A stretch of DNA of 64,000 nucleotides from assembly GCA_027604185.1 (NCBI GenBank), contig JADGKB010000002.1, forward strand, positions 287,874 to 351,873, read 5' to 3'. The stretch comes from Boothiomyces macroporosus (lineage: Eukaryota > Chytridiomycota > Chytridiomycetes > Rhizophydiales > Terramycetaceae). The position numbers and the translations under genes were made by a program. Within the stretch, counting starts at the first letter, position 1. Each line of letters begins with the position of its first letter. This document shows, piece by piece, positions 1 to 43,640 of this stretch. A model generated the notes under the pieces. It ran no database searches and was not told where the DNA came from. It was given only the letters and a program-made list of their open reading frames with translations.

Positions 1-1044
1 AAGCTTCATACAACTCTGCTTCACTCTCTGAATCATTCCGCTTTAGATTTGATTCATTCTTTTCACTTGTGGACTTAACTCTTCTTCTACGTCTTTCAAT
101 ACCCGATTCTTGACTCACAAAGTCCTTGAATTTGTCCATTTTGTTTGATATTTTATCAAATCCTCCAAATGTGAACTTGTTCAATCCAGACGTAATTGCT
201 TGTACAGCATTGTTTGGATTATTTGGATCACTCTTGCGCCGTTTCAACCTAAGAAATCCAGACTTTTGTTTGACTTTAAATAACGTTGGTTCTTCAGTTG
301 ATTTTGTGCTTAAATTTAGTTCAGAGGATTGTTCAGAAGGTAAATATGCTTCAGGAGACTCTGATGTCTGTGATAAAATGTCTGACTCAAAATCAGACTG
401 TTCAGATTTATAACCTTCGTAATAGGCAGTTTCCAGAAATTCAGGTTCCAGCAACTACAATTAAACAACGAATTTACAAACAATATCTTTTCATTTAGCC
501 AGTCAGGATCTGACAGAACATCCATGAGTAGAAGTAGCACATTATTGCAGAGTATCTCTTTCACAAGTATCCGCACGGAATCGCTGTTTACTTCTGATTC
601 CGGCAACAATATATCCAATAAAATATCTGATACTTTTTGCATGTATTCAAGCTCGCTTTCGTTGGAAGAAAGAGCGGTATGTGGTTGTATTCCATAAAAC
701 AATTCTTCAAATGACTTTCCTCCAGAATATGCAGTCCCTAACTTGCTGCAACAGTTTTTGTAATCCTTTATGTGATTAGTAAGGACTTTAGGCAAATCGA
801 AAGAGATCAGCTCTATCCAATCCACTCTGCTTAGCCGTCTCTCTATTTCCTGAATCAAAACGGAAATGGTTTGGACGATTTCCTTGTAAAACTCCATGTC
901 GTCTGAAAGCAGTGAATACCAAGCTGAAACATAGTCGTGCAGCAATAAGGCGATGATGCGAGAAAGTTCGCTGTTGACTTTTTCCGAACTCGTCATTTTC
1001 TGTTGCTTTACCAACTGCAGAATGTCTTTTAGATTTGAAGGCAT
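1..1044 (-). CDS. PXA-domain / nexin-C protein (Pxa1/SNX13-like), 5' part, cut by window edge
   Basis: This is the N-terminal portion of the gene seen complete at 41742-43640. It probably acts in endosome or ER-membrane contact and lipid traffic, as sorting-nexin-like PXA proteins do. Exon 1 (478-1044) encodes the PXA domain: helices with LSRIIALLLHDYVSAWY near the start and DVLSDPDWLNEKILF at its end. A 23-nt intron (455-477) follows, then a Ser/Glu-rich disordered segment that runs off the window at base 1. The ATG at 1042-1044 is the first in frame; an upstream open stretch lacks ATG. Only a 60-bp gap separates it from the stop of the upstream membrane-protein gene. The truncation is caused by the window edge, not by a visible mutation. 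Confidence 0.85.
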
Positions 1045-1104
1045 ATGAAAGTTAAAAACGGTGCGGCGAAACAAGAGCAAAAATCACTACCAAACAATAT
1101 ATTA

Positions 1105-1905
1105 CTAATATAAATCTTTGGTCAGCCAGATAATGAGGGTATAGCGCAGCAAGCAGGATGCGGTCAGGATGGCTGCATCTCGAGAAAACACTAGGAACCA
1201 GTACTTGGAAGTCCCGATAGGATAGTATTTTCTCGTTCCCAGTATGTCTCCGAAGCCAGTGAACAGTGTCCACAATTCAATATTTCGCGCCCATATAGAC
1301 TCGCCTCTATAATGACACTTTGACTGCCACAGCATAGGTGAGAAAGCATGTAACTTGAATTGCTCGTGATCAAATTCGCACTGTTCAATAATTTGAAATT
1401 TAAGCTCATTCGGTAGTTTGTTTCCAAGCTGAGCAACAAGTTCTTTCATTTGCAGTTGGAATTCGGTGTCAATCATGAATTCCGCAATTTGAACTTGTTT
1501 TTGTCTAATCCACAGGATGTGATTTTTAATGGTATCCAAATCCTGCAAATTGTTACAATTGTAACTGCCAAAAAGAATGAAAGTTGGCCATATCATGAAT
1601 CCAACAATAAATGGGACTGAAATAAGTGTGGGAATGGTGTAGAGCAGATAAGTATATAATGGTTGTTTTATGTGAGCATATATGAGGTACATGTGCATGT
1701 CAAATATTCTGTAGGTACTGTATGATAATAAAAGCAGTTGAACTGCTGCTGCTACTGCCATTATCTGCTTTGCCAGATTCCTATTCATTGATTTGTAATA
1801 TAATTGAACTGTCCAGTTTTCATGGACGAATGATTCGGGTGGGAAAAAGAATCGTTTTGGCGATGAATAGATTGGTGTTTGACCTGTTCGTTTAGTGACT
1901 ATCAT
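1105..1905 (-). CDS. Hypothetical multi-pass membrane protein, 266 aa
   Basis: I do not recognise this protein with confidence. It is a single open frame from ATG 1905 to TAG 1105. Two strong hydrophobic segments lie at about residues 47-67 and 85-112, with a weaker one at about 235-261. A charged, helix-prone stretch (about 122-185) follows the second. The arrangement of a proline-containing hydrophobic pair followed by a charged helical region faintly resembles LETM1-domain mitochondrial proteins. The diagnostic residues are not clear, so this is only a suggestion. No signal peptide is obvious; the basic, aromatic N-terminus (residues 1-22) could be a mitochondrial presequence. It lies head-to-head with the TBCCD1-like gene, about 300 bp away. 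Confidence 0.7.
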   Translation of the reverse strand: MIVTKRTGQTPIYSSPKRFFFPPESFVHENWTVQLYYKSMNRNLAKQIMAVAAAVQLLLLSYSTYRIFDMHMYLIYAHIKQPLYTYLLYTIPTLISVPFIVGFMIWPTFILFGSYNCNNLQDLDTIKNHILWIRQKQVQIAEFMIDTEFQLQMKELVAQLGNKLPNELKFQIIEQCEFDHEQFKLHAFSPMLWQSKCHYRGESIWARNIELWTLFTGFGDILGTRKYYPIGTSKYWFLVFSRDAAILTASCLLRYTLIIWLTKDLY

Positions 1906-2206: not shown

Positions 2207-4056
2207 ATGTTGAAAATTGTGTTTTTTGATAATTTTTCGTGTACTGGTCCCAAGATGACATTGTACTTGAACGAAAACCTACACGATTTCTCTCAGCTAA
2301 TTATCCCAGATGATACGCACTTCAACTATACAAACTTATTGGCGCTTTGTACGGATTTAACGGGAAAGCAAACCATCGGATTAAACTTGTGGACCGAGTT
2401 GGCGTCATCCCACTTTAAACTCGCTCCACAGGATTCAAGGATATTCTTTGAAACGTTTTCCCTATCGTTTGCGGAACAGAAGGGGTCTATGATGTCTGTT
2501 CCAGTTTTAACATTTGTATTGTTTCTGTATAATCAGCTATATGGCCTATCAATCAGTCAAATCCCTGTGAAGACCCAGGATGAATATCCAAACCTCAAAG
2601 AAGGACCGCATTTCCCGTTGGAAAATACAGAGCTACCAACCCACGCTTCTTGTGCTTCTTTGGATGAAGAAGATATTGAAACACTAAATCACCAATCTTT
2701 TCCTTCTCATTTGATTGATGGAAGAAACAAACTCACAACATATTGGCGTTCGACAACTAAAAAATGGCTACAATTGATCTATGTTGTGGTATATGGAAAC
2801 AAGGCAGACGCCAGACACAATTCATCAAGGCCAAACGGATTTGATTTCAACATCAAAGACTTGGCCGGCATGGATGCCTTCTTTACTGCTGTATTGCCTG
2901 CTTCTAGATCGCAATCAAGTAAAATTAACCACGAGCGATTCCAATCCTGGATGAATCAACGGGAATTTGCAATTACTTTCAACTATCCAAAAGATCTCCA
3001 TACTGTTTCAGATAATACTCTTCGCCGAGCGGATGCATGCAGTCTTCTCAAGGAGTATTTCCAGTATTCTACCTTTTCAAATTGCAAAGTACCTTTAGAC
3101 GCTTTACACTACTGTTTCCAATGGTGTATTATGGAGGGTCAACCAAATTATTCAACGATAAAATTATCAGAGAACGGAGTAGCTCTTGAAACTGAAACTA
3201 ATAGACAAGTTTCTTTTGCCAATCCAGAAGGTTTATTTCGTTTAATGTAGTTTTGCTATCTCGTAAAAAACACTTGTCAATCATGCTATCAAGTGAATTT
3301 ATAGAAAACAAGAAAGTCATACTTCACCGACTTTATGATTGTAATATTTACCTGGTTGGTCTGGCAAAGAATGTAATGATCTCCAGATGTAAGAATACAA
3401 ACATTTATGCTGGTGTCCTACACAACCAAGTTCACTTACAGTCAAGCGTAAATTGTAGGGTCCACGCGATTTGTAAAAGGATTATGGTTTCTATGGATGC
3501 TTCTACAATCACATCAAATATAGACAGCAACCACCTCTTTATCAATACCAAATTCAACCCTCTATTATCATGCTCGGCCACAAACAATATTCCAGTTGTC
3601 TTAGCCCCATTTGATAATTGGCACTTTGGGATATTGGATCAAATCAAATTAACTGGAAATGATTTAAAAGTAAACCTATGGGACCAACCGGTATCAGTAC
3701 AAAGAAAGAGCACAGACTATTCCATACTTGCTCCTGCTCAGTTTTTCTTGTCTGAGCTTCCATTTACTGTCTTGCCAAATCCAGCAAACGCTGTCAATGA
3801 AGGTAGACCCGAGACTACGGTTGAATATCAAACCATTTTGAAACATTTGCCCGTGCAGTACGCGACTTGGCTAGAAGGGATGTCAAAGATCAATAATCTG
3901 CTGATTGAAGCTATCAAGAAAGCAACTTTAATGGATCCTACTTTGAGTACAACTGTTGAAGATGAATTTCAGAAATGGCTTACCACTTCGGGTAATATCA
4001 AGTATGTAGGAAGTATGTTGGGTTTGCAAAGTGATTATGAAAAGCTGATTAAATAA
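2207..4056 (+). CDS. TBCCD1: TBCC domain-containing protein 1 (TBCCD1-like)
   Basis: Related to tubulin-folding cofactor C and to RP2. TBCCD1 proteins associate with centrosomes and basal bodies and help position them. Exon 1 is 2207-3230, followed by a 20-nt intron (3231-3250, branch TTTAAT) and exon 2 (3251-4056), giving 609 aa. The N-terminal half contains a FETFSLSFAEQKG region and FVLFLYNQLY, like the helical N-domain of TBCCD1. The second half is the C-CAP/TBCC beta-helix, with alternating short strands such as LYDCNIYLVG and CKRIMVSMDAST, ending in a LAPFDNWHF-type segment typical of TBCCD1. The first in-frame ATG is 2207; a short upstream coding exon is possible. It is convergent with PEX14, with 24 bp between stop codons. 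Together with DRC8 nearby it implies a ciliated life stage. Confidence 0.8.
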
Positions 4057-4997: not shown

Positions 4998-5345
4998 GTA
5001 ATTTTTTCTTTACAAAATTTTCAAATTACTGGTCTGCCTATAGCACACCATTCGTTTGGAAGCACACTCCTTAGATCCCTCTTCAGGAATCTGATTCGTC
5101 GGGTTCACCATCCTTGCGATGGTTGTTGAATAGGCTTGAGTCATTGGTGTGCAACATTGATATACCTTCCTGCTTTTCCCATAGAACTAGCCAGTCTGTT
5201 GACGAGTATACGCAAGTTCTACTGGATTATAGGAGGACATTTTACTGGTATTGGTTTAATTTATCATACTCAGCATAAATTAAGTCAAGTGCAAAGACAA
5301 TATAAATTAAAAAAGTGAGCATCAATGTTCTGACCTCAGAATATC
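4998..5345. other. Intergenic region between PEX14 and ACBP; possible tiny gene unresolved
   Basis: This 348-bp divergent region has no convincing gene. On the plus strand a 60-codon frame without ATG ends at 5318 and contains a short hydrophobic segment. On the minus strand, fragments including an AGRYINVAH stretch faintly recall the F1 ATPase epsilon subunit, but I could not join them with acceptable GT-AG introns. An AT-rich stretch precedes the ACBP start. Confidence 0.35.
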
Positions 5346-5848: not shown

Positions 5849-8800
5849 ATGTTGAGTTCAAGATCAGCAATTCCAAACAATTCAAAGCCGGACCAATTAC
5901 GGCAAACGTCGCTGCTGATTGAAGAGCAAATAAGCAGAGACAAGTAATTGATTATTAACTTTGCTTTCCTGACTTGCAGGATTTACTTCTTGGAGAAAGA
6001 AAACGAACTTCACAAACAACCATAAATGTGGACAACTCTGGCAAATGGAATTATCTCGTGGCAGAATCTTTTAAAAATCTTCCGGATTTTATTCTACAGC
6101 GATATGATTGTAATTTCAACTAATATTAGCGTTGATGGTGTCATCATTCATGGGTATCTTTCCCGAGATTAATCATGTGTGGATGACCATTGATAACCAA
6201 TTATATCTCTGGAATTATGAAGTACAAGAACCTATTTGTACCCATGAGGATCCGGACCAAGTCATTATCCATGTCAGTCTCGTCAAACCGCTACCTGGAA
6301 TATTCTTGGAGCAGATCGAATATTTGCTTGTTATTGCAACACCATTAGAAATTACACTACTTGGAATTGCTTTTGAAGAGAAAAAGAAGGCTGGAAGGCC
6401 AAGAGGAAAAGTAAAGATTTTTAGAACGGATTTAGCGTGTCATGCTGACAGTGTCAATATGTCTAGCATCATTGGTACTGATCAAGGCCGTATTTTTATG
6501 AGAGGAAATGATGGGCAGCTATTTGAACTGGTCTATCAAGGTGATGATGGATGGCTTACTAGAAAAATTAGAAAGTTGAACAAATCTGGAAGCAGTTTAG
6601 CCGTATTCATTCCATCCATCTTTAACTGGGCTGGAAGTGGTAAGAAGAAACTCATGTTAGATCCTATCAAATTGATTGCGTTCGATAATGATCGAAATGC
6701 ACTTTACACTGTGACTAAAAACAACTATATTGAATTGATTTATCTTGGACCGGATGGAAAAGGCTTTACCAGAATTGCAAAGTACAAGGATCTCAACAAT
6801 GATTTGAACAAAATCAACGCCTTTGATGATCAAATTATTGCTTTGTATCCAGTTTCACCAATGGAGTCCAGATCTTTGCATATGGTTGTGATTACTTCTT
6901 CGGGAGTGCGTGCATATTTTTCAACAAATGATTACAGTTACGCTACAACTACCAACCCAAAATTCATTGAACCTAAAACACTAAAATGTCTATTTGCTAT
7001 ACCGCCAAGCAATATTGCTGGCGCTGTTAATCAAAGAATTAAAGTTCATCAAGGATACTATTCAAATGGAATCACCATTACTTCTCAGGCTCTGGAAGAC
7101 ATTGATCGTATTTTGATGTCGGCTCCTCATGCTGGGGCTATCGTGCAAGGGGATAGAAAATATTTGGTAGAATATGCTGGCTATTGTGAAGTAGAAGGTC
7201 GTACTTGGGCCATTGAAGAAGTCCCTTCCGATTTGCTCTCGTCAATGAAAAAGAAGCCTGTAGTTGGGTATCACTTGAACGAATTAGCCACTCAATTTGA
7301 ATTCGAGCCCAGAAAGTTCTATCTTTTGACAAATGGAGGGTTGCACACGATTGTGAAGTATCGGCCAATTGATATCCTCTACCAGCTCCTCTCCTCCCAA
7401 TCTCCGAGCAACCTGCGTGTATTTCAAGACTTTTTCTCAAAGTAATCTAGTTCATAACAATAGTTTTGGAAACGATCAAAGTTGTGCAATGTGTTTGGCT
7501 ATTGCTGCAAATCATCCGTAACTATTACTAACTGTAGAACAATTAATCAGGGCCTTTACGCAGGTAATTGAGCATTTATTTCAGTCAATAACAATATCGT
7601 GAGTCTTGCAACAAAATTGTACTTTGAGCTTGGTGGGGTGCCGTCCATGAGAAACTCTCCACAAACTCAAATGGGAGGTAATCCAAGATTAATTTCCAGT
7701 TACTTCTTTAGGAGTTCCATTTTCCCCTAATGACGTCGCTCATTCTGCAAAGTATAATGGACTTGTATTATACATTTCAAGGCTAGTTCGATCATTGTGG
7801 AAGCGGGAGTTGGTCTCTAAAAGGTTCATATCACTAATTTATAGTTTGTCACCCAATGGACAAGAGTTGTTAGTGCCTACATTTACATCCGAGCAATTGG
7901 CATCAATCCAATTGAATCTGGGTTCTTTGGAGGCTTTTCTGAAATTGTATCCAAAGTTGACGGCTGCACCAACGCCAGATACCAGACCAACTCAAGGAGA
8001 CCATGAAGCATGGAAGATTGAACAGCAATCATTTGCATACATTCATGAAATCATTATTAGAACTTTGGAAACAATTTCATTTCTATCAATACTTATTGAC
8101 TTTAAAATCCCCAACCTGGTGCAAAATCTTTCAGAACACGATCGAAAGGAATTAATCTCAATCACGTTTGATGGTTTGGTGATTTTGCCAAAGGGGAGAG
8201 AAGTTGCCAAAGCTTTAATGTCTGCGCTAATCAACAATCAAATCAACAAGGAAATCGGTGCTGAATATGTTATTGATTCATTACAAAAGCGCTGTCCTGG
8301 CATTTGTGAAAGCAACGATGTTATCCTCTTCAAAGGAATGGAAAACCTCCGAACAGCTAAATCTATTGCCAACCAAGGCTCGTCAGCTCAACTATTACAA
8401 GATGCGCTCAAGTACGACGTTATTGATTGTAGGTTATTTTTGTCCATTTCCAAGCATTTGACGTTGGAGAAATTGTCTGAAATCGTTGAAAACTTTAAGC
8501 AGTTGCGATTTTATCCTGGAATCATTGACTTGGTGTTGCTTAAATCCTCGGAATATGTAATTCCTGACAACCTCGCAGTGGATGTAAACAATCCTTACAA
8601 TGAAATATTAGATTTAAGGCAGAGATGTTATGAACTAATCTTTGGAACATTTTCTTCAATTTCAAACTTGGGCACCACTGGGCAAATGTCTAAGGATCAG
8701 GTTGAAAAATACACAAAGGTATTGCTAAACAAAGCTTTGGCAAGCGATGATAGAAACTTTCACTATTCATTATACACTTGGTTCATTAATCAGAGTTGGA

Positions 8801-9866
8801 TCGACAAACTGCTCGAGATCCAATCACCACATTTCGAGGCATTTTTGGTCGAAAAGAAGAGAGACTTGGTGCTTGCTGATTATCTGTGCCGATTTTATGT
8901 GCGAAACAATAGATTCTTTGATGCTGCGCAATTGCTCAGCGAAATCGCTTATTACCCAGGTTTAAATCTTGATACAAGGCTCTCCTATTTGGCAAATGCA
9001 ATTGCCAATGGAAAGAGTTGCACTGGGTCCAACACTCAAGAATTGCTAGGTCAATTGAACGATCTCCTGGATGTAGCTCGTATTCAAGCAGACATTATTT
9101 CCACGCTTAAAAATATTCCTGACACAGAGCTCTTGCTGCAAGAACTTGATAGTGAATTGTTGGATCTTGCAACCGTAATATCAAATTAACATAGCTTTTT
9201 AGCAAATACGCCAGACCTTACGAAATGAATGAAATTATGCTTCAAATCTTTTACATTTCCGAAACTAGTCCTGATAAAGCAAGAATTATAATTGAAAAAT
9301 GCTGGGATGATATAATCAAGCAAAGTAATTATTGCTAAATAATAGAATTCAGAGACGCACAATTCAGCAAGATATCTCCATTTGATTCTCTTTCTGATAA
9401 GATCAAAGAGCTCGGGTTAAAGTTTTACCCTTCAGACTTGGTATTCCCGTTATTGTATTTGGTCAACAAGCTCGAACAGTCCAGCTTGGACTATTACATC
9501 AAGGAAAATTCATACTCGTATGGATGGGTTGCTCGATCACTTCTTGATGTTAAAATACCATTTAATCTGTTGTTCCAAGTCTACCAATCCATCTACGAAT
9601 CAAAGGTATTTCTAAATCTTACGTAGTTGCCCCCATGGTCGTCAAACGAGGCAATCGCATTCTTGATTCACAATATTTTAAAACTCGTTCAGACTTGGTT
9701 CGACTATATTAGGTCACCAGCCACTGGATTCTATGAAAGAGATGAATTCCCAGCAAGAGAAATTGATGAAGTACTAAGCAAATATCTCTCCAATCTCCCT
9801 ATGGACAACAAATCATTAAGCAACGAAATCCAAAAACTACAAAGCAGGCTCCGATCTGCCTTTTAA
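5849..9866 (+). CDS. NUP155: Nucleoporin Nup155/Nup170 (inner-ring nuclear pore scaffold)
   Basis: A large scaffold subunit of the inner ring of the nuclear pore complex, with an N-terminal beta-propeller and a C-terminal alpha-solenoid. Later exons: to 6109, 6130-7441, 7464-7517, 7538-7563, 7585-7677, 7700-9174, 9195-9324, 9346-9605 and 9627-9866. They join cleanly through 20-22 nt introns. Family landmarks are SFMGIFPEINHVWMTID near the start, LYLWNYE, YLLVIATP, AKYNGLVLYISRLVRSLW and LEQSSLDYY. The first exon (5849-5943, with a SLLIEEQISRD segment matching Nup155) cannot be joined in frame using the obvious acceptor at 5979. An acceptor at 5999 (56-nt intron) restores the frame and gives about 1264 aa. 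One exon carries all ten differences from the second copy. Animal Nup155 is about 1390 aa. Confidence 0.9.
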
Positions 9867-9880: not shown

Positions 9881-10497
9881 TTATTTTGCGAGAATTGTAA
9901 TATAATCTTCATAATAAATCTTGTTTTCTGCTGGATCAGTACAGGCAGCCAGCATTTCTTCAATCTCTTCTTCTGTAAATACTTCGCCTTGGGAAGTTAG
10001 TGACTTTTTCAACTCATCTGGAAGTAAATAACCTTTCTTGTCTGTATCTAGAGTCAGGAACGCTCGAAACAGAGTTTCTTCGTCACTCTTCACTGGATAA
10101 GTTCCACTAAGAATTCTAATAGTGACTTTGGAAAATCTTTCCCATGTAACAAATCCTGATGGCTCATCTTCTTCCATCTACGTTAAATCAATGCCATACT
10201 TCAGTTACCCATCCATGCAGCTGCTCCAAAGTAGGATAAATCCCCAAAGATCTCAGGATTGTACCGATTTCACGTACTATATTAGTTGAAATTACCATCA
10301 CATGTGCTGTTGTTTTGTTGGTCAAAAGTATCAAATGCTGCCCTGACTCGCTTCAAAAGGATTGTTTCTGGAGACTCTACTTCTTTTACGGGAAGCGGAG
10401 GAAGTGGAGCTTCAACAGATTGAATTTCAACTTGTGGTTTTTCAATTGGGGCTTCTTCTTGTGTGGTTATTTCTGGAACAGGTACTTCACCGTTCAT
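9881..10497 (-). CDS. DRC8: Dynein regulatory complex subunit 8 (EFCAB2-like EF-hand protein)
   Basis: A subunit of the nexin-dynein regulatory complex on axonemal doublets, found in organisms with motile cilia. Exons 10296-10497, 10200-10276 and 9881-10177 (introns of 19 and 22 nt) give 191 aa. After an acidic, Pro-rich N-terminal extension of about 45 residues comes a calmodulin-like region: RVRAAFDTFDQ, then REIGTILRSLG, then EDEPSGFVTWERF, then LFRAFLTLDTDKKGYL, and finally IYYEDYITIL. This order matches EFCAB2/DRC8 more closely than calmodulin or centrin. Only the third loop (DTDKKGYLLPDE) looks able to bind calcium; the others are degenerate, as in the family. Its stop lies only 14 bp from the NUP155 stop on the other strand. 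Confidence 0.85.
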
Positions 10498-12155: not shown

Positions 12156-13376
12156 ATGGCCACTCTGAGCTCGCTCATCTTTGTTGCCTTGAATGACATT
12201 GATTCCACCACTGGGATTAAAGAGTATGAAGATTCACAAACAAAGAATTGCTCGTCCAAATTGTACAGTCACCTGCCAAAATGCAGAGCATGTGTGAAAA
12301 AGAATGGAGAATTATGCAGGTTCAAGAACTTTCGGAGATTCTTTAGACTAAACGGGCTCTCTAGTGGTCCAGTATTCTATTTCGGTGATCCGCCGGTATT
12401 CAATCTGCCAAAGCTGGATTACTTTGCACTCATTATCAAATCTAGATGGATTAACTACTTGCATGTAGAAGCCATCTACCGCCCAGAGTTATTCAAGTGC
12501 GACTATTGCTCATTCCCTGTATTTATTTATCGGCTATGCAAAGTCTGCGGTATAATCTGTTGTCAATTTTGTCAAAAAACATGCCATTCAAGCGATATTG
12601 TTTGTTCCATGATTGATAACAATTATCTGCAACGGCTAATTTATGAATCTTTGGACATCCAGACTGGAGTGTGTCCCCGGAATGATATTTTGGTGATGCA
12701 TACAGATACTGTGTTCCCAAAGTTGCTCAACCTGATGGAAAACAAACGAGTTACATTGATTGATTGCAAGACTGGCTCAAAAATAAAGGCATTCCTGGAA
12801 TCTGTAGCGATGAATAAGCGGGTACTGAAATACCAGGATTATTTTGGTGGATACAATGACTATCTACCAAAACTCCCTTTGCAAAATCTCTTGGATTTCA
12901 GCCTAGTTAAATTCGACCCTTATGTTGAATTTGGTAGCGAATGTGACTCTGGTTCTTGCACCAATCCACTGACTTTGTTGAAGACTGATCAATTGTGTGT
13001 GATGATTCAGGGTGAAGGGGTGGTAGAATGGGATATTTGGGAATACCATTCATTAAAACAAGCGATTCAAGATATCACACCATTGGATCCGTTCAAAGAT
13101 CCCAGTTGGTTTTTAGACGACTATTGGAAACATCAATTGCCAAAAGCGAAACGAATTGAACAGTGTGTGGGAGATATAGTCTATTTGCCAGCTGGAAGTG
13201 CGTTCCAAACTGTAAACAAGTGCTTGGCAGTACTAGTAAATTCCAATTGATATTAGGTAAAACTGGATTTTTGCTCAATTGCAAATCTTTGCAAGTGTAT
13301 GGATATTCAAGATCAGTATCCTGGAAATGTCAACTTTGATGCTTTATTGTTTAATTATCTCAATTCAAACAAATAA
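12156..13376 (+). CDS. KDM3-like JmjC protein with degenerate iron site
   Basis: Resembles KDM3/JHDM2 histone H3K9 demethylases. Exon 1 (12156-13235), a 21-nt intron (13236-13256) and exon 2 (13257-13376) give 399 aa. Near residue 43 a CRACxxxxGELCRFKNFRRF segment matches the KDM3 N-terminal zinc region. Residues about 116-148 hold a cysteine cluster (CDYC, CKVCG, CQFC). The C-terminal half has the JmjC landmarks QDITPLDPFKDPSWFLD-like and CVGDIVYLPAGSAFQTV. The catalytic His-x-Asp stretch aligns with CTNPLTLLKTDQLCVMI, where the His is absent. The distal His after PAG is a Phe. It is therefore likely inactive as an oxygenase and may be a chromatin reader or scaffold. It is convergent with 5-oxoprolinase, 20 bp between stops. 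Confidence 0.7.
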
Positions 13377-22768: not shown

Positions 22769-22785
22769 CGGTAGATTTTTTTAAT

Positions 22786-31602: not shown

Positions 31603-33197
31603 ATGGCATCCATTGGTATTAGTTTTGGTACTGTCTACTCTTGTATCTCTATTCCAGACAAGGTATCTCGCCTTTAATTTCAGAACGGAATCCCGGAAGC
31701 AATTGCAAACGAGGACGGTTTCAGACAAATTCCCTCATATGTCGCATATAACGACGTAGAAGTGTTATGTGGTACACAGGCAAAGCAGCAAGCATTGTCT
31801 AACCCAAAAGGAACAATCAACCACTTCCGCCCTCTTTTGGGGAAAAAGTAATTTGATCTTGACATAGAATTGGTGACAATGAAGTTGAAGATTTTGGAAA
31901 GACTTTTAGAGTGCCTCTTGTCCCATCCAGTGATGATGCTGCCTTGCCAGTCTTTGAAATTGAAACTTTCCCTGAAGGTGCAGAGGAACCAATTATTTCA
32001 CAATATTCAGTTACTGATGTAACTGCTACCTACCTTAAAAAATTAAAGGACACTGCAGAATACTTCCTCAGTTCACAAGTAGACAACTGTGTCATTTCAA
32101 TCCCAGCCCATTTTGAAGAATCTCAAAAGAAAGCTTTGTTGAAAGCTGCACACGAAGCCGGGTTCAAATCTGCCTACGAGCTCCATGAACCAGTTGCTGC
32201 TGTAATGGCATTCAACAACCTTGGTTCCACTACTCAAAACAAACTTGACAAACAAATTGTTGTTCTAGATCTTGGGGCTGAATCATTCAACATTACTGTT
32301 ATTTCCAACCACGATGGTTTGTACACTATTGAAGACTCTGTAGAAGAGCCAAACTTGGGTGGTAATGACTTTGACCAAGTCTTGGTTGGATTCGCAAAGG
32401 AAGAATTCAAGCGCAAGACTAAAATGGATATTTCAGACAACAAGCGTTCATTGATCAAATTACAAAATGCTTGCGAACGCACTAAAAGAGCATTAACCCG
32501 TAACGACACTGCTCCATGCTCTGTAGAATCATTGTATGACGGTATGGACTACAACGGCTCCATCCCTAGAGCTAGATTTGATATGCTTGCTGAACCACTA
32601 TATGCTAGATGTAAAGCAGCAGTATTGAAAGCTCTAAAGAAGAACAAGCTGTCTGTGGAAAAAGTTGATCAAGTTATTTTGATTGGTGGAAGTTCAAGAA
32701 TGCCAAGATTCCAAGCTTCAATGAAATCTCTTTTCCCAAATGCTGATGCAGAAACTGAATTCAGATGTGATATTGAACCTGATGAAGCTATTTCTTTGGG
32801 TTGTGCAGTTCAAGCCCAGATTTTGTTGGCCAACGAAGTCGATTTCGATGTCAAGTTTGAAAAAAAGTTGATTGATGCCGAACATTTGTCCAAAACTATT
32901 ACTATTGCTTCTGCAAGTGGCGAGCACGTCCCTGTTATCCCTGCAGGTACCCCATTGCCAGTTCGTCGTCAATTTACCCTTCCACTTGCCGCAAAGCAAA
33001 CCGGTGTGTATCTGTCTGTCTCTGAATCAGACGGCGCTGCAAACTCCCTACTTGGGGAAGTTGTGTTGTCCGGTCTACCAGATGATATCAAGGACGGAAA
33101 AGTTGAAGTTGTGTTCTTGATCGAATTAGATCATGTTCTTCAAGTCACTATCACTGAAAAAGTAAGTGGAGAAAAGGTTCATGTTGCATTGAAATAA
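31603..33197 (+). CDS. SSZ1: Atypical Hsp70 Ssz1 (ribosome-associated complex)
   Basis: Ssz1 pairs with the J-protein zuotin on ribosomes and assists folding of nascent chains. Exons 31603-31662, 31684-31847 and 31868-33197 (introns of 21 and 20 nt) give 517 aa, well short of the 640 of canonical Hsp70 and close to Ssz1 (538). The start MASIGISFGTVYSCISI lacks the canonical GIDLGTT. The ATPase fold is otherwise kept (VDNCVISIPAHFEESQK, IVVLDLGAESFNITV, VILIGGSSRMPR). The substrate-binding domain is truncated, with no C-terminal lid or EEVD tail, as in Ssz1. Immediately upstream is a T-run followed by an A-run. Ssz1 orthologues are characteristic of fungi; the animal counterpart is HSPA14. Confidence 0.9.
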
Positions 33198-33259: not shown

Positions 33260-36200
33260 ATGGCAAAGAAAAGAATTACAGATTCGGATGAAGAATCGGT
33301 GAACAAACGACAAAGAAAAGAAGTAGAAAACAATTAATAATTAGGAGTCGGAATCTGACGCCTCTGAATCTGAGGCCCTTGAATCAGAAGCCGAACAGGA
33401 TGAACCATCAAGGAAGGATTTTTCTGGACTAGGAACAATCGAATCGGTAACCATGGTCAATTTCATGTGTCATAAATACTTGGAAATTAAATTGGGAGAG
33501 AAATTGAATTTTATTGTTGGACACAATGGTTCTGGAAAATCAGCAATTCTAACTGCATTAACAGTTGCATTAGGCGGAAAAGCGTCTTTTACAAACCGAG
33601 CAACTAGCATTTCCAAATTGTTGAAAGAAGGGGAAGAGTATTTCGTAGTTAAATCAGGGTTGGCGAAGTGGTTGTAAGAATTCGTAATCGCGGGCCAGAT
33701 GCCTATAAGCATAGCGAATATGGAGATACTATTGTTGTTGAACGAAAGATTGCGCAGGCTGGAAGTGCCTCTGGATACAAATTAAAATCTCATTCTGGAA
33801 AGCTTGTTTCAACAAGACACGATGAATTGATGGCTATTTGCGATCACTTACAAATTGAAGTTGATAATCCAATGGCAATTCTTACTCAGGACACTGCAAG
33901 GATGTTCTTATCGAACAGTACCCCAAAAGATAAATACAACGTACTTTTTTTCTAACTCAGTTCTTTTTGAAAGGAACCCAGTTGGAAAGGTTACAACAGG
34001 ATTATGTTAAAATGACTGAAAATATGGAAATGATTCAAAACTCTCTTTTACGTAAAGAGCAAGTAATGCAATTTAACTGTAGGGTTTACCAGACTTGGAA
34101 AAGGAAGTTAATGATTTGGCAAAGAAATGGAAGGTCATATCTCTTTAATCCTAGGATATGGAAATGGCGACAAAACTTGAAGGAAAGATCAATGAACTAC
34201 AAGCGGAACAAATCTGGTCGCGCGTTGCTGAAGTTGAGAAGAGGGCTGAAGGTAAATTGACCGAGTGCAAATCATTAAAGGAAAAAATCAAGAAGGTTGA
34301 TGGATATATTGAAAACTATCAGCAACAAGCCCGGCAGTTTAGCGAATCTGGAGACGAGCTGCGAGAAAGAGAAAAGTTTGCAAAGTCCCAACTTACTCCA
34401 CTACAAATGCAAAAATCTGATATTTTCCATGCACTTCAGCAAATCAAGGCTGAATTACACAGCTGTGAATCTGCAAAAGCAAATTTGCAAAATCAGATTC
34501 AGCGCCAAAAGGAAGTTGTGAATGATATAACTGGCCGTATTGAAAGGGAAAATCAGAAAATGTCCAAAGACTTTTTAAGCCAAAAAGAGGCTAATGAAAA
34601 GGAATTGGAGTCAATGATCCACAAACGTGATGGACTCATTGATCAAATTTCAAGGGTAAGGCAAACTAATATAGGCAAGGAAAGAAATTGATAGATTGGC
34701 TAGTGATATTGATCGCGAGCAACAACAAGAAAGGAAAATGGAGGCTAATTTGCAAGCTATTCGAAAGGACATTGATGGCGTCCAAAGAAATATCAGAGAC
34801 TGTGATGCCCAAAAAACTGACAAATTAGCCGCTTACACCAGGAACATTTCTGCTGTTGTTAAAGATGTTGACGATTGTGAACGGTTGCGTAAATGGAGTG
34901 GATATAAACCAGTTGGCCCGATTGGGATTCACATAAAGTTGAATCAGAAAAAGTATGCCCATGTAATCGAAACAATTTTGAACAAGTCTATGAATGCATT
35001 TGTCGTACAAAATCAGGAGGATTTCCGTCTTTTACAAGGAATTTTAAGAAATAGACAGTGGTAAGCGAGTTGTTTATTATTAGTGCCGCACCAATATACA
35101 AGTACAGTCCTAAATCAAGCCTGAATTATTTTGATGGGCAGCCATCTAAACAATTGAAAACCGTCTTGGATGTGCTATCTGTAATATATGCTAATCTAGA
35201 TTGACAACCAAATTGCCCTTGAACAATTGATTATCAACAACAACATTGAAAAGTCGGTCCTTGTTGATACGATGGAAGAAGGTGACAGTCTAAACCCTTG
35301 GCCAAAGAATGTTTTGGGTGTGTTTACTCCAGAAGGTCATATTATCGGTGGAAAACAGGGTGGATTGTCTACTACAAGTATGACCATGTATCGAGGAGCA
35401 CCACGGTTGTCTGAAAATTTGGACGAATATGTTCGGTAATAGTTTCTCATATATAGTGAGCTAGAATACGAATTAAACCAATTGAAATCAAAATACAATG
35501 ATTTGAACGCTGACCTTAGTGAGGCAAATAGGAGAAGAGTGTCCGTCGAGCGTCAAAAAAGCAATCTGATTGCTGAAACGAGAAAGCTAGAGACCTCAAA
35601 GTTAAGACTTGACGGGCTGATCAGAGAAAGAGAGGAACGAATCAATGTATGTCAAATTTTAATCTTAGGATGCACAGCCTGTTAACATCGATTCATATAT
35701 TGATATGAAGAATGTAATTGCAAACTAATTTCAGGAAGAACTGAGTAAACTGGAATTACTCGAAAAGCAAATGTGTGATGCCAGAAATGCGCTCGCTGAA
35801 ATTGCTCAAGAGCAGAAAGCAAAGATCATGGAAAAAGATGAAATTCTAAAAGAAATCAGCAAATGTGACGCTACAATTAATAGTATCCAAAACGAACTGG
35901 CTCAATTTGAACCGCAATTGCTAAAGTTCAGAACTCAAATTGAAACGTATGTTAGAAGGAGAACTGAATATGCTGAGCAGTTGGCAGAATGCACGGAACA
36001 ATATGAAATATTGACTGACGCCCTTGAAAAGCAAATCGAATCTTGCAATGCTTACTGCGAACGCGTTGAAATCACCCGTCCAAGAGAGGAAATTGATGAG
36101 GAACTGAAAAAGGTGCAGGCTTTATTGAAGGAAAAAGAAAAACAGTATTTACATATTAACATGTAGACTGGGATCCCGTGAAGCACTCCACAAAAAGTAT

Positions 36201-36846
36201 ACTCAAAAGAAAGAAGCGCTTGATAATGCTATTAAAGAGATTAATGATTTCAAGACTTTAATGGAATGCTTGTTAAAGACCAAGGCTAGACGTGAAAGAA
36301 GATATGAAAGTTTCAAATCTTTCATTACAATTAGAGCAACCAGAATGTTTGCCGAGTTGATTAGAAAGAGAGGATATCGTGGTGTCCTTTCACTTGATCA
36401 TGAGGCTGGGACATTGTCTTTAAATGTATTGAAATACTAATTGTAGGTTGACGTAGAAAACAAGGGTAGCGTTGACGAAGCTGAAGATGAAATTGATAAT
36501 GACCCGAGAGCATTGTCAGGGGGCGAGAAAAGCTATGCGACAGTATGTTTATTGCTAGCTCTGTGGGAAGCTATGGCTTCTCCTTTCCGTGCGTTAGATG
36601 AGTTTGATGTTTTCATGGACGCAGTTAATCGTAGACTTGCAATGAAATTAATGATTGACAATGCGAGAGATGCTGATGTACAGTCTCAATACATTCTCAT
36701 CACTCCACAAAACATGAGGTAAGTTATTTCTGATCACTAGTAATATCAACATGAATGCTGCAGATATTCGTGTTCATCTTCTCAAGGCACCAGAGAGAGG
36801 ACAGCAAACATTGGATTTCTCCAGAGCCCGTGCACGAAACGAATAA
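33260..36846 (+). CDS. SMC6: SMC6, structural maintenance of chromosomes protein
   Basis: An ATPase arm of the SMC5/6 complex in DNA repair and replication-fork stability. Fifteen exons (first 33260-33322, last 36741-36846) are separated by 14 introns of 19-23 nt, giving 1097 aa, the usual SMC6 length. After an acidic Ser/Glu tail comes MVNFMCHKYLEI and the Walker A GHNGSGKSAI at about 80-89. KYNFFLKGTQLERLQQDY spans intron 3. Coiled coils flank a hinge around GGKQGGLST. The C-terminal ATPase half has LSGGEKSYATVC at about 995-1006 and the SMC6-type Walker B FRALDEFDVFMDAVNRR. The GTA donor/TAAT-AG acceptor rule was tested most thoroughly on this gene: every join restores frame. Confidence 0.96.
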
Positions 36847-36879: not shown

Positions 36880-38793
36880 TTACAAATTCATATTTGATTT
36901 GGAAGCCTTTCCAAAGATGCCCCGCTTCTGTGGTTTGTTGAGACTGGTTCTGGATGCGGACTCTACATTTTGCACTGGGGCTCCAGAATTAGTTCTGTTC
37001 AAAAAGTTTAAGCCAAACTTTGATTTTTCATTTTTAGGTCTGCCAGGCGAATCCATTTGTGTGTTTGCTAGGGAAGAAATCTCTATCGCTGATATGTTTT
37101 TTTCTTTTTCAAGGAACTGGGCTTTGTCTGGGGGTTGATCTACATTAAATATTGATTACTGAACAAAGTATCGATTGTTGCTTCATCCAGACCAATCCTT
37201 TTCGCTAAATCCACTGGGGTTTCACCTTGATCGTTCTTGATTGAAGGGTCTGCTGATTTATATAGCAAATAGTGTGTTACTAGTACATGCGAGTAGCTAA
37301 TGGCCTCGTGCAATGGAGTCCTAATACTAAGAAAGAAAGTACCATCCGTTAAATCCAGAACAATTGATATCAGCGCCATTCAAAACAAGAGCAATGACAA
37401 CATCCAAATTTCCTCTTCTAACTGCAATGTGGAGAGCTGTAGATCCACACCCATCTTTCAGATCAACCTTGACTCCAGCATGTAGCAGCAATTTTGTAAT
37501 ATTGATTTGTTTTGATAATAGTAGTCCAAATGAGGATTTGGCAATGACAGCTTTGCTTGCCCTACGAATAAGTAAAGTTTACAATTCAATGAGCTGTAAT
37601 GCTACAGTTTCGTGTCCACTTGCTAAAGCTAATTCATACAGTAATATTTCTTTTTCATTGATAAATTCTTGGGGAAAGGTAATTGGCCCTTTCTGGCCAT
37701 ACTGTCTGAATGCATCTTTAAAAGGCGATGGACTTTCTGGCGAACCATTTTGTGGTGATCCATTACTTGATTTTGGTACATGCGATTTCAATCTGTTCAA
37801 TAAACACAAATCTGCGAGTCCAAGTGTCTGGTTAACGTTTGCCCCGCACTGGAGAAGCAACTGAATCATCTGATCATTGCCTTGTACGCAAGCAATCTGC
37901 AATGGTGTGACTTGATACCAACTCAAATTTGGATCTGCTTTGAACTAATATTAGAAGGGTTTACTTTAATCATTGTCTTGCATAGCTGGTCCAGCCCAAA
38001 GGAACATGCAAGTTGGAAATAGGAAGGAAATGTGAATTTGGGTGGTTTTTGAGGATTAACAGGTTTGAAAATTGAACTATTAACATTTTGGGGAAAGCCT
38101 TTTTCCATCATATGAATACACACCGTTTGTAACCTATTAATCATTGCATTGAGAAATATTCTGTTTGCATCTTGCGGCCTCTTTTTTATCAGTGTAGCGT
38201 CAGAAAGCAAGTCTAGTAAAGCACAAGACTCAATCACTTGTCTATCCATAACCGCGATGGTAAGCGAGTGGAATATTCCTTCATTTAGAAATATTTACCA
38301 GTGCGGGTCCGTTTTTGTTTCTTGTTGCGCAAAAGCGCATTTATTTTACTTCCAAATCCGAGGCGTTTACCTGATTTATCACCCTTGGCTATCATTAATC
38401 AGAATTACTAGTCGCATCCTGGATTGTTTTATTTGCAGTTGGTTTTAATTTGTTTGATAGTATATGTCGCTGATTAAGTGCATACAGTATCTTGCGTTGG
38501 AATTTAGGTTCTCTATCGGTTCTGCGGAAGTATGCGAATGAATCGTTTTCGGGTATCGCTTCAACGGTCACTAATTCACTAGAACTCTTTCCTTTCTCGT
38601 CTTTCGTCTCCTCTACTCCTACTGTTCTGCTTCTCGCCCGATGCTGTAAAGGAGCGGTGAGTAACTTGTCTTTGGATAAATTAATTGATGATGTGGACCT
38701 TGGGCGGGTTTGATTATCATTTGCAGTTTTTGGTATATCCTCAGTCACAATAATGATATTATCTGCTGGTGGAGTCTGCCCTGTCTGCTCCAT
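36880..38793 (-). CDS. Ankyrin-repeat protein, 596 aa
   Basis: Exons 38409-38793, 38299-38388, 37965-38278, 37583-37944, 37343-37561, 37160-37320 and 36880-37139 are joined by six introns of 20-22 nt, giving 596 aa. The N-terminal part is polar and Ser/Arg/Lys-rich (MEQTGQTPPADN..., KNKKQKRTRTG). From about residue 250 onward ankyrin repeats appear: VTPLQIACVQGNDQMIQLLL, STALHIAVRRGNLDVVIALV, GADINCSGFNGWTPLHEAIS and DQGETPVDLAK. The last about 90 residues are basic and disordered (FGLNFLNRTN, QKRGIFGKASKS). The specific family is not recognised. It is convergent with SMC6, 33 bp between stops. The partner and location cannot be inferred from ankyrin repeats alone. Confidence 0.85.
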
Positions 38794-40582: not shown

Positions 40583-41696
40583 ATGTCATCAGTTAAAGAA
40601 TCTCTTAAGAACCTACCAACAACCTTTCAAAAGATCATTGTCCACACTCTCTCCAACGATTTCGATCAGGCAACTAAAATCGTTACTGTTGATTTCAAAT
40701 CATTTATTTCTCAGCTAAGACCAAACCAAGTAGTTGTTAGATACAAATACGTTGGTATTAACGCCTCAGATATCAATTTCACCGCTGGAAGATACGACCC
40801 AACAATCAAGCCTCCTTTTGATGCTGGTTTTGAAGCTATTGGGGAAGTTGTAGCCACGGGAAAGGCAACCAAAATAAAGCTGTTACAGCCAGTAGCGGTA
40901 ATGAACTATGGTGTTTTTGCTGAATATCAGATTGTGTCTGAAAAAGCATTAATTCCAATCCCAACACTAAACAAAGCATTTTTGTCCTTGATCGTGTCTG
41001 GATTAACTGCTTCGCTAGCCCTAGACTACCATGGACATATGAAATCCAAGGAAGTTGTTTTGGTTACTGCTGCAGCTGGTGGTGCTGGCCAAATTGCCGT
41101 GCAATTGGCAAAACTCGCGGGTAATCATGTAATTGGAACTTGCTCCACTGGAAAAGAAGCCTTTTTAAAGTCAATTGGCTGCGACAGGGTCATTAACTAC
41201 AAAACTGAAAACGTTGCAGCAGTATTGAAGAAGGAGTACCCAAAAGGTGTAGATATTGTATTTGAATCTGTTGGAGGAGAAATGTTCCAAACTTGCATGA
41301 AGGCATTGAATGTAAAAGGTTCGTATTGCTGATTGTAGGTCGTATGATTATCATTGGCGCTGTTTCCTCTTATGCAAACGAAGTCAAGGATGGTGAAAAG
41401 ATGAACGTGTTTAGCTGGGACTCTGTGAAAACAAACACTCTCCTCAACAAATCAACCACTATTACAGGGTTCTTTTTGAATCATTATGTATCAGAATTCC
41501 CTGTAACAATGAAGAAACTTACCGATTTGACCCTCTCTGGTAATTATAATTAATTTCAGGTAAACTCAAGCCTGCTACTCACGATGAAGGATTTGCAGGG
41601 TTGCAAGATGTATCCAAGGCAATTAAATGCATGCATGCTGGCAAAAACATTGGTAAAGTTGTTGTGGAATTGAAAACTCCATCAGCGAAACTATAA
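40583..41696 (+). CDS. Zinc-free medium-chain reductase, PTGR3/ZADH2-like quinone oxidoreductase
   Basis: An NADPH-dependent reductase of the quinone-oxidoreductase superfamily. Exons 40583-41318, 41339-41539 and 41560-41696 (both introns 20 nt) give 357 aa. The N-terminal GroES-like domain holds VRYKYVGINASDINFTAGRY and FDAGFEAIGEVV. The nucleotide-binding domain has VLVTAAAGGAGQIAVQLAKL (the AxxGxxG motif) then NHVIGTCST. The C-terminal part, with the segment TTITGFFLNHY, matches ZADH2/PTGR3. There are no structural-zinc cysteines. The likely substrates are enones such as 15-keto prostaglandin-like lipids or quinones; this is inferred from family only. Confidence 0.9.
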
Positions 41697-41741
41697 CAAG
41701 CCGTTGCAAGTCAATAATAAAACAGTTTTATTTACTTTCTA

Positions 41742-43640
41742 TTAGAAATTCACTTTGGGACTGGCTATTTCTGGTGCTATATGAACAAGGATGAGGTCAA
41801 CTGCGATGTACAATAGATGCTTATTGATTCGTTTGTTTTGGAAAACATCCACAAGCGATTTGACTTTTTCTTTTGTATCTTCTGGTTTCATCAAGTAGTT
41901 ATAGTTTTCTATCGTTAAATAAAAGTACTGGGTATCATATCGTGAAGATTGTTTTCTAGCCGCTCTCTGATTGCCTTTTTTTCAGATTCCGATCTCAATG
42001 GATTTGGTGCGCAGGGAATGTCGTTTGGCCAGAACGACTCTCTTATCAGTTCCAAGTATAGAGCCAAAGTATCTTCTCTAATTATTTGGTATATGCCCCG
42101 TATTATTCCTCTGCAAGTTAGCTTTTGAGTTACCTGTTGATTATGTGACCAAAAAAGGTTGCTGTTACTGGTCGAATGAAAAACTGAATATGCATAATTG
42201 ACCAATACTGATCTTTATCTAACTCTAAAATAGCGTGCACTAATTCGAGAAAAGATTCCTCTAGGTGATGTCGATCATATAGTGTTGTGTTAATGGGTCC
42301 AAGTTTCCATGGTCCTTTCTTGGTTTCCCAGTGTAATTTCCATAGTTGATCCCAAACATTCTTGAGAACACCATAAACATCACTCTGTGTCGGTACTGTT
42401 AACTCTACCGATTCTTCAGATTTCAACTCTGAAAATGAAACCATAGGCTTCATCTTTAGCATTCCTGGAGGAGCTAAATGACTGTCTAATCTTGACTGTT
42501 CGCTATACATGTGATTGGAAGTAAGTTGAGATAGATCGGAATTAGATTTGGTTATGACAAGTTGTGGTGCTTTTGAAGGCGAGGTGTCAGGCGTTGAAGC
42601 TTCATACAACTCTGCTTCACTCTCTGAATCATTCCGCTTTAGATTTGATTCATTCTTTTCACTTGTGGACTTAACTCTTCTTCTACGTCTTTCAATACCC
42701 GATTCTTGACTCACAAAGTCCTTGAATTTGTCCATTTTGTTTGATATTTTATCAAATCCTCCAAATGTGAACTTGTTCAATCCAGACGTAATTGCTTGTA
42801 CAGCATTGTTTGGATTATTTGGATCACTCTTGCGCCGTTTCAACCTAAGAAATCCAGACTTTTGTTTGACTTTAAATAACGTTGGTTCTTCAGTTGATTT
42901 TGTGCTTAAATTTAGTTCAGAGGATTGTTCAGAAGGTAAATATGCTTCAGGAGACTCTGATGTCTGTGATAAAATGTCTGACTCAAAATCAGACTGTTCA
43001 GATTTATAACCTTCGTAATAGGCAGTTTCCAGAAATTCAGGTTCCAGCAACTACAATTAAACAACGAATTTACAAACAATATCTTTTCATTTAGCCAGTC
43101 AGGATCTGACAGAACATCCATGAGTAGAAGTAGCACATTATTGCAGAGTATCTCTTTCACAAGTATCCGCACGGAATCGCTGTTTACTTCTGATTCCGGC
43201 AACAATATATCCAATAAAATATCTGATACTTTTTGCATGTATTCAAGCTCGCTTTCGTTGGAAGAAAGAGCGGTATGTGGTTGTATTCCATAAAACAATT
43301 CTTCAAATGACTTTCCTCCAGAATATGCAGTCCCTAACTTGCTGCAACAGTTTTTGTAATCCTTTATGTGATTAGTAAGGACTTTAGGCAAATCGAAAGA
43401 GATCAGCTCTATCCAATCCACTCTGCTTAGCCGTCTCTCTATTTCCTGAATCAAAACGGAAATGGTTTGGACGATTTCCTTGTAAAACTCCATGTCGTCT
43501 GAAAGCAGTGAATACCAAGCTGAAACATAGTCGTGCAGCAATAAGGCGATGATGCGAGAAAGTTCGCTGTTGACTTTTTCCGAACTCGTCATTTTCTGTT
43601 GCTTTACCAACTGCAGAATGTCTTTTAGATTTGAAGGCAT
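41742..43640 (-). CDS. PXA-domain / nexin-C protein (Pxa1/SNX13-like), complete
   Basis: Exons 43074-43640, 42134-43050, 41929-42110 and 41742-41908 with introns of 23, 23 and 20 nt give 610 aa. The PXA domain occupies about residues 10-190. A Ser/Asp/Glu-rich linker (about 200-405) has basic clusters such as RLKRRKSDP and GIERRRRRVKS. The nexin-C domain (about 430-605) includes VWDQLWKLHW and ends with FQNKRINKHLLYIAVDLIL. No PX or RGS domain lies between them and there is no N-terminal membrane anchor, so it resembles fission-yeast Pxa1 more than SNX13/Mdm1. The reading frame crosses 42596/42597 without a break. Its stop is 45 bp from that of the convergent PTGR3-like gene. Confidence 0.9.

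Follow-up and report, generated by a model that had tools for sequence, protein, structure and literature searches.

Introns of about 20 nucleotides with a fixed branch-site position in a chytrid-lineage fungal genome

The window analysed here comprises the final 64,000 bases of a contig of 351,873 bases (JADGKB010000002.1), which belongs to an assembly of 15.2 Mb in 216 contigs. It carries genes for, among others, a nucleoporin, 5-oxoprolinase, PDI, a glutathione peroxidase-like protein, a PA2G4-like protein, two amino-acid transporters, ATP1, an HSP70-like protein, and a zinc-type alcohol dehydrogenase. The subject of this study is the set of predicted introns, nearly all of them 19–23 nucleotides (nt) long, that interrupt the genes of the window. 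Positions 42,597–64,000 repeat positions 1–21,404, as part of a 42,596-base tandem unit at the very end of the contig; 21,394 of the 21,404 compared bases are identical, and all 10 mismatches lie between positions 8382 and 9138. The repeat may have arisen by a duplication in recent time, may represent two haplotypes, or may be due to misassembly. Because the rest of the window is a repeat, introns were counted in positions 1–42,596 only.

The gene finder described below predicted 66 introns in this unique 42.6 kb, 65 of which were kept. The rejected candidate, a 77-nt intron at 12018–12094, spans the stop codon that ends an open frame. The length is 19–23 nt in 64 of the 65 introns, and the remaining one, in the ATP1 presequence (29172–29199), has 28 nt. 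Sixty introns start with GTA, the best branch motif is YTRAY or YTRAA in 55, and the motif ends 2–6 nt before the AG in 59. These values agree with a preliminary description of the window, which had placed about 67 introns of mostly 19–23 nt with a nearly universal GTA start, a CTAAT-, CTAAC-, or TTAAT-like motif ending two to six bases before the AG, and a maximum length of 28 nt in the ATP1 presequence. The same description spoke of a branch site fused to the acceptor. The two are indeed close, but they are not fused, as the motif ends 2–4 nt before the AG in 58 of the 65 introns, and the phrase captures only half of the picture, since the spacing from donor to branch site is held equally tightly. 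The branch motif is weak in six window introns (starting at 7564, 29086, 30266, 35061, 37321, and 37562), of which only that at 29086 is backed by homology.

The sample used to characterize the introns consisted of the unique 42.6 kb and 25 stretches of 10 kb, each from another contig, with a total of 292,596 bases. It was decoded with a codon-based gene finder that covers both strands and models intron length explicitly. The key run was blind to motifs: introns were required to begin with GT and end with AG, lengths of 12–120 nt were equally likely, and no branch motif was used. Its coding model had undergone two rounds of retraining on GT-AG decodings of this sample. The run yielded 29, 50, 29, 14, and 6 introns of 19, 20, 21, 22, and 23 nt, respectively, a total of 128. 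The same procedure applied to ten decoy dinucleotide pairs (TG-GA, GA-TG, AG-GT, CT-AC, AC-CT, TG-AG, GT-GA, CA-AC, GC-AG, and AT-AC) gave 11–26 introns of these lengths per pair, with a mean of 20.3, and therefore about 20 of the 128 motif-blind introns may be false. The AT-AC pair, which has the ends of U12-type introns, remained at background with 25 introns; the minor small nuclear RNAs (snRNAs) were not searched for. In competition with four decoys, GT-AG obtained 79 introns of 19–23 nt and the decoys 4, 5, 5, and 4. At other lengths, GT-AG was below every decoy, with 10 introns of 12–18 nt compared with 11–29, and 158 introns of at least 24 nt compared with 227–248. The excess of GT-AG at 19–23 nt only therefore indicates a single intron class that has a sharp lower limit of 19 nt. 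The counts that are decisive for this class come from a set made without a length or motif prior. Introns of 19–23 nt have about one-third of the usual fungal intron length.

The final model, trained on the 128 motif-blind introns and supplied with a length and motif prior, was rerun on the sample and predicted 374 introns. The lengths of 360 of them are 19–23 nt (80, 150, 81, 38, and 11, respectively), with a mode of 20 nt, and the remainder comprises six introns of 17, 18, 24, 25, 25, and 28 nt and eight of 40–77 nt. The eight introns longer than 28 nt were dropped, and the counts given below rest on the 366 introns of at most 28 nt. GTA forms the start of 335 introns, and the acceptor is TAG in 262, CAG in 68, AAG in 33, and GAG in 3. 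The introns have a GC content of 29% and are distributed over phases 0, 1, and 2 as 144, 126, and 96. Coding calls cover 229,893 of the 292,596 nt, the intron density is 1.6 per kb of coding sequence, and plain extrapolation gives about 19,000 introns in the assembly, duplicated contigs included. The finder misses stop-free introns with a length that is a multiple of three, for example 21 nt, and mis-parses tiny exons. In-frame stop codons occur in 67 of the 83 introns with a length that is a multiple of three, and the other two phases contain stop codons in 52 and 56 of the 83; selection for stop codons is not inferred from these values because the finder would miss stop-free introns. Motif scoring with a flat length prior to 200 nt gave many introns of 25–200 nt, none of which were counted as real because GT-AG introns of at least 24 nt are below all decoys and some of the long ones contain shorter introns. 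Rare long introns may exist. A search for a rigid intron pattern across the genome gave no match.

The spliced products of the ATP1, PDI, PA2G4-like, glutathione peroxidase-like, alcohol dehydrogenase, and HSP70-like genes were aligned to solved chains, and the top alignments were inspected by eye. Fourteen junctions of these six genes lie in the aligned regions, and 13 of them are free of gaps within four residues, including the junction at amino acid (aa) 38 of ATP1, which has a one-residue gap five residues away. The sole exception is the junction at aa 21 of the HSP70-like protein, where a one-residue gap is located two residues away. When 5-oxoprolinase is aligned with its relatives, no gap lies within five residues of the junctions at aa 98, 189, 397, and 780 in 2 of 2, 6 of 6, 87 of 88, and 90 of 91 alignments, respectively. 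Homologues support 18 of the 65 window introns, and these 18 are all of those tested against homologues. Outside the window, removal of the four predicted introns from the U2AF65 gene results in a TIGR01642 score of 341.6, above the cut-off of 310.3, which the best unspliced stretch does not reach (230.7).

The host appears from one gene, ATP1, to be a chytrid-lineage fungus, and its genome is small. The closest named relatives of the ATP1 protein are from Kappamyces (94% identity over 91% of the query), Globomyces (93%), and Phlyctochytrium (92%), and no protein identical to that of the window was present among the matches listed. In a tree of 39 sequences, chosen by name from the match list, the window sequence groups with the metagenome protein P0124, Kappamyces, and Globomyces (support 95/86). 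This group is positioned inside a chytrid clade of 24 rows (support 98/96). Amoeboaphelidium and another sequence, presumed from its label to be from an aphelid, are separate from it. The grouping of ATP1 with Chytridiomycota supports the earlier suggestion of ultra-short introns in a fungus-like genome.

The branch site of the introns has a nearly fixed position. In the motif-blind set, 88 of the 128 introns contain YTRAY with its A at nt 14–16, compared with a mean of 7.6 and a maximum of 17 in 500 trials with shuffled interiors. Among the 366 introns, the A of YTRAY is located at nt 13, 14, 15, 16, 17, and 18, counted from the donor G, in 2, 128, 110, 25, 7, and 0 introns, whereas shuffled interiors predict 7.9, 7.6, 7.4, 7.6, 6.0, and 2.9. 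A strong branch score was obtained for 314 introns, that is, all except 52, and in 260 of these the branch A is followed by 5 or 6 nt. The branch A is at nt 13 or before in 16 introns, 14 of which have a further T.A site at nt 14 or beyond. After exclusion of 18 introns with the branch A outside nt 14–17, the distances from donor to branch and from branch to acceptor are uncorrelated (r = 0.004, n = 296), and the main combinations 14+5, 14+6, 15+5, and 15+6 are represented by 61, 65, 63, and 42 introns. The motif-blind set gives r = 0.02 for the 90 of 128 introns with YTRAY at nt 14–17, the other 38 being excluded. A fixed total length would result in a negative correlation of the two spacers, and the values close to zero therefore point to two separate, independent constraints. 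The floor of 19 nt follows from the sum of the shortest spacers, 14+5.

YTRAY is present in 73–77% of the introns (73% in the motif-blind set), and the WCTRAY-type motif in 21–22%. The best single hexamer occurs in 10% of the introns, which makes the signal weak by the yardstick of PMC2483917, one hexamer in more than half of the introns. The donor contains little information beyond GTA, with 1.22, 0.38, 0.22, and 0.40 bits at positions +3 to +6. The proportion of T at nt 5–11 is raised to 45, 58, 40, 40, 47, 35, and 44%, compared with 31% in the genome.

The genome encodes parts of the major spliceosome. Two copies of U2 snRNA exceed the cut-off, and both contain the GUAGUA branch-pairing region; their 3′ halves differ, and beside one of the copies is a gene with a putative resemblance to hAT-type transposases. 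U4 snRNA and U6 snRNA, the latter with ACAGAGA, are also above the cut-off. U1 snRNA scored 68.8 bits, just under the cut-off of 69.5, and has the canonical 5′ start AUACUUACCUG. As judged by their sequences, the pairing regions of U1, U2, and U6 match the GT(A) donors and YTRAY branch sites. SF1 (L004:654–2124) has kept its helix-hairpin, KH domain, and zinc knuckles, and its KRKTRW stretch aligns with a motif of the human protein that we take to be U2AF-binding. An N-terminal stretch rich in R, D, and S, which does not align with the human protein, precedes this presumed motif. RRM1-RRM2 and the C-terminal RRM of U2AF65 match solved chains. The preliminary description had pointed to possible loss or change of U2, U6, SF1, and U2AF; in partial answer to this point, the genome contains U2, U6, SF1, and U2AF65, whose pairing regions or domains are canonical.

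The genes of the branching factors YJU2 and ISY1 are present, with an ambiguous exon parse at the N-terminus of ISY1. CWC25, when read from an internal ATG that is located 43 residues downstream of the start chosen by the finder, begins with MGGGDLNLKKSWHP; fourteen residues are identical to a solved CWC25 homologue, and the GGG plug is kept. In Stentor, where the branch A is at nt 10, CWC25 is without the glycine plug, and this absence has been suggested to prevent a collision with the very small lariat (PMC9505925). The loop of 14–15 nt thus evidently needs no loss of the plug. CWC25 is found with identical scores at C49:3194–3481 and C100:4789–5076, in two 3288-base loci that yield the same gene models, and an RRM match of equal score occurs twice in C20 (C20:74242 and C20:119309), so that the assembly seemingly contains duplicated blocks.

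We conclude that the segments are very probably U2-type introns of a chytrid-lineage fungus, which are removed by an ordinary major spliceosome through intron definition, and that their length is the outcome of two separately limited distances. The branch A would be at position 14 or 15 from the donor G and would be followed by 5 or 6 nt to the acceptor, and the two limited distances would sum to the floor of 19 nt and the mode of 20 nt. Pairing with U1 or U6 needs nt 1–6 of the intron, and pairing with U2 needs about seven nt around the branch A. Because the branch A is at 14–15, only 2–3 nt are free between the donor and branch pairings, and 14 nt may be about the shortest span that allows non-overlapping pairing of U6 (or U1) with the donor and of U2 with the branch heptamer. 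The branch site and the AG close behind it would be recognized jointly by SF1 and U2AF. Between the two there is no room for a pyrimidine tract, and U2AF65 might instead bind the T-rich nt 5–11. In the human B complex, the 17-nt helix of U6 with the 5′ splice site and the 14-nt helix of U2 with the branch site are 15 nm apart, and about 52 nt are needed to connect them (PMC6692369). With 14–15 nt available here, the long human helices cannot both form. Either short helices would be formed in a more closed complex, or the donor would be passed to U6 before the full docking of U2. In human cells, SMU1 and RED relieve the span constraint of the B complex (PMC6692369). Ciliates with short introns are reported to have retained SMU1 and RBM17 (PMC12862383). 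It is an evenly balanced question whether almost all of the approximately 19,000 extrapolated introns are at the geometric minimum for coexisting U6-donor and U2-branch pairing while SF1, U2AF65, and the CWC25 plug, as in intron-rich eukaryotes, are kept. If they are, two distances are measured by the spliceosome independently of each other, neither the long helices nor the 15-nm gap seen in the human B complex is obligatory, and splicing of 20-nt introns requires the loss of neither the branching-factor plug nor the branch signal.

Several points weigh against the interpretation of the segments as ordinary U2-type introns. The introns are known here from genomic DNA alone, the set of 366 was found with a length and motif prior, and the coding model of the motif-blind run was trained on GT-AG decodings, with the chance background noted above. 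The donor consensus is GTAATT-like, with U at position 5 in 45% of the introns and G in only 17%, which mismatches canonical U1. Neither Rfam nor a single strict pattern detected U5 snRNA, and both are weak tests of absence. The geometry of the human B complex implies that there must be some difference in assembly, and none was found. The reliance on DNA could mean that the introns are artefacts, produced by sequencing indels or by over-fitting of the gene finder, which would then remove short segments so that frames remain open, and a hidden Markov model can invent introns, as is evident from the many long false ones and the 11–26 decoy introns. However, no peak at 19–23 nt was produced by the ten decoy pairs, the branch motif is at a fixed place although it was not used in decoding, and homologous proteins continue through the tested junctions. 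On this sequence evidence, the artefact explanation is refuted for the class as a whole. Equally improbable is removal without a spliceosome, either by programmed DNA elimination, similar to that of the internal eliminated sequences of ciliates, or as non-conventional introns of the euglenid type. The segments are short, AT-rich, and uniform, as such elements would be, but decoy boundaries including AT-AC and GC-AG gave no peak, a motif complementary to U2 is at a fixed place, the branch-site factors are retained, and the host is placed among fungi, in which we know of no programmed DNA elimination.

We consider it unlikely, although clearly less so, that the introns are spliceosomal but their spacings are not read, so that deletion bias or selection on genome size sets the length and the branch position follows. 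The genome is compact, with most of the sampled sequence called coding, and a short intron with the AG near the branch site leaves little room. Against this, the distribution of the branch A has an abrupt lower edge between nt 13 and 14, positions 17–18 are at or below background despite the available room, and the spacers are independent, whereas a length limit alone predicts a negative correlation. The trait may also be common to a wider chytrid clade, in which it was missed or mis-annotated, which is somewhat less than an even possibility and is compatible with U2-type introns limited by two distances. The nearest named relatives, Kappamyces and Globomyces, are known here from proteins only, such introns would escape gene finders that impose a minimum length on introns, and no result presented here weighs against this explanation for chytrids. 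The fungi other than chytrids listed in PMC2483917 have longer introns, with medians of, for example, 57 nt in Rhizopus and 56 nt in S. pombe.

The positions of the 65 introns are listed in Table 1; the gene with the intron at 33323–33344 is presumably SMC6-like. The window additionally contains a match to the H/ACA snoRNA SNORA53 at 5061–5241 (60.5 bits, Rfam cut-off 38), a 3.5-copy array of a 37-base unit at 21276–21404, between two genes, and, at 21486–24773, two neighbouring, divergently arranged genes for amino-acid transporters that belong to one Pfam family.

Table 1. Predicted introns in positions 1–42,596 of the window (aa, amino-acid position of the junction)
Position	Strand	Length (nt)	Gene or remark	Support
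455..477	-	23		gene finder
3231..3250	+	20		gene finder
7442..7463	+	22	nucleoporin (Nup133/155-type)	gene finder
7518..7537	+	20		gene finder
7564..7584	+	21	weak branch motif	gene finder
7678..7699	+	22		gene finder
9175..9194	+	20		gene finder
9325..9345	+	21		gene finder
9606..9626	+	21		gene finder
10178..10199	-	22		gene finder
10277..10295	-	19		gene finder
13236..13256	+	21	gene 3′ end, doubtful	gene finder
15049..15069	-	21	5-oxoprolinase aa 780	gap-free in 90/91 alignments
16218..16238	-	21	5-oxoprolinase aa 397	gap-free in 87/88 alignments
16864..16883	-	20	5-oxoprolinase aa 189	gap-free in 6/6 alignments
17158..17179	-	22	5-oxoprolinase aa 98	gap-free in 2/2 alignments
17831..17852	-	22	PDI aa 390	contiguous with solved PDI
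17988..18009	-	22	PDI aa 345	contiguous with solved PDI
18852..18872	-	21	PDI aa 64	contiguous with solved PDI
19021..19042	-	22	PDI near N-terminus	gene finder
19646..19665	+	20	glutathione peroxidase-like aa 67	contiguous with HYR1
19844..19862	+	19	glutathione peroxidase-like aa 126	contiguous with HYR1
20584..20605	-	22	PA2G4-like aa 186	contiguous with solved PA2G4
21071..21092	-	22	PA2G4-like aa 31	contiguous with solved PA2G4
21906..21925	-	20	amino-acid transporter	gene finder
23726..23746	+	21	amino-acid transporter	gene finder
24304..24322	+	19		gene finder
24450..24468	+	19		gene finder
25185..25205	-	21		gene finder
25727..25748	-	22		gene finder
26654..26673	+	20		gene finder
28698..28718	-	21	ATP1 aa 153	contiguous with solved ATP synthase alpha
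28893..28915	-	23	ATP1 aa 95	contiguous with solved ATP synthase alpha
29086..29107	-	22	ATP1 aa 38, weak branch motif	one-residue gap 5 residues off, presequence
29172..29199	-	28	ATP1 presequence, longest	gene finder; outside aligned region
30266..30286	+	21	weak branch motif	gene finder
31082..31100	+	19		gene finder
31223..31241	+	19		gene finder; motif-blind run preferred 31238-31256
31351..31370	+	20		gene finder
31663..31683	+	21	HSP70-like aa 21	one-residue gap 2 residues off
31848..31867	+	20	HSP70-like aa 75	contiguous with solved HSP70
33323..33344	+	22	candidate SMC6-like gene	gene finder
33638..33657	+	20		gene finder
33941..33960	+	20		gene finder
34063..34082	+	20		gene finder
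34134..34154	+	21		gene finder
34656..34674	+	19		gene finder
35061..35083	+	23	weak branch motif	gene finder
35181..35199	+	19		gene finder
35436..35456	+	21		gene finder
35647..35668	+	22		gene finder
35714..35734	+	21		gene finder
36145..36166	+	22		gene finder
36426..36446	+	21		gene finder
36719..36740	+	22		gene finder
37140..37159	-	20		gene finder
37321..37342	-	22	weak branch motif	gene finder
37562..37582	-	21	weak branch motif	gene finder
37945..37964	-	20		gene finder
38279..38298	-	20		gene finder
38389..38408	-	20		gene finder
41319..41338	+	20	zinc-type alcohol dehydrogenase aa 246	contiguous with solved ZADH2
41540..41559	+	20	zinc-type alcohol dehydrogenase aa 313	contiguous with solved ZADH2
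41909..41928	-	20		gene finder
42111..42133	-	23		gene finder

The host lineage has cultured relatives and is near fungi used in genetics, so that it becomes possible to test how short the donor-branch distance can be and how a spliceosome is structured on a loop of 14 nt. In such genomes, many genes would be annotated wrongly if the usual minimum length were imposed on introns. Among the matches listed from the Creative Commons-licensed literature in PubMed Central (PMC), judged by title and start of abstract, there was no report of ultra-short chytrid introns, and as far as this literature shows, the present genome is apparently the first of a fungus with nearly all introns of about 20 nt. 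Microsporidia aside, the fungi tabulated in PMC2483917 have median intron lengths of 55–467 nt.

Introns of 15–21 nt are already known from Stentor, mikrocytids, and chlorarachniophyte nucleomorphs. The preliminary description had noted that the lengths in the window approach the shortest known, and they are indeed near the 18–21 nt of chlorarachniophyte nucleomorphs (PMC10245619) and above those of mikrocytids and Stentor. The nucleomorph of the chlorarachniophyte Bigelowiella natans, with 860 introns of median length 19 nt and a standard deviation of 0.57, is similar in its narrow, nearly equal intron length, richness in introns, and donors that are largely GT(A), as they nearly are here (PMC2483917). 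It is, however, the relict nucleus of an algal endosymbiont and not a fungal genome, and WCTRAY occurs in 1.39% of its introns (PMC2483917), compared with 21–22% here, where YTRAY reaches 73–77%. The introns of Stentor coeruleus share the very narrow length distribution, GTA donor, fixed branch A, and presence of the major snRNAs, but they have 15–16 nt, the A at nt 10, no strong branch consensus, and a CWC25 without the GGG plug (PMC9505925), in contrast to the 19–23 nt, A at 14–15, recognizable motif, and kept plug described here. The mikrocytids Mikrocytos and Paramikrocytos also have uniform tiny introns with a conserved sequence, but these measure 16–17 nt, number 224 in M. mackini, and are accompanied by heavy reduction of the spliceosome (PMC10245619). 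Here, each kb of coding sequence has about 1.6 introns, and the few spliceosome factors checked are present. Paramecium is likewise rich in short, uniform introns, but their median length is 25 nt and CTRAYW occurs in 3.55% of them (PMC2483917). Encephalitozoon and other microsporidia are related to fungi, and their introns are short and contain a branch motif, which is CTAAYTT in E. cuniculi, but these genomes are intron-poor and reduced, with only 13 introns studied and a median of 32 nt (PMC2483917). According to PMC2483917, a branch signal is absent from those intron-rich genomes that have the shortest introns, and short introns with a conserved branch site belong to two intron-poor species, E. 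cuniculi and T. vaginalis. The recognizable, fixed branch site of the chytrid-lineage introns departs from this pairing of short introns and intron richness with an absent branch signal. As far as the Creative Commons-licensed PMC literature shows, the combination of a fungal, intron-rich genome with introns of about 20 nt, a fixed branch site, and kept branch-site factors is new.

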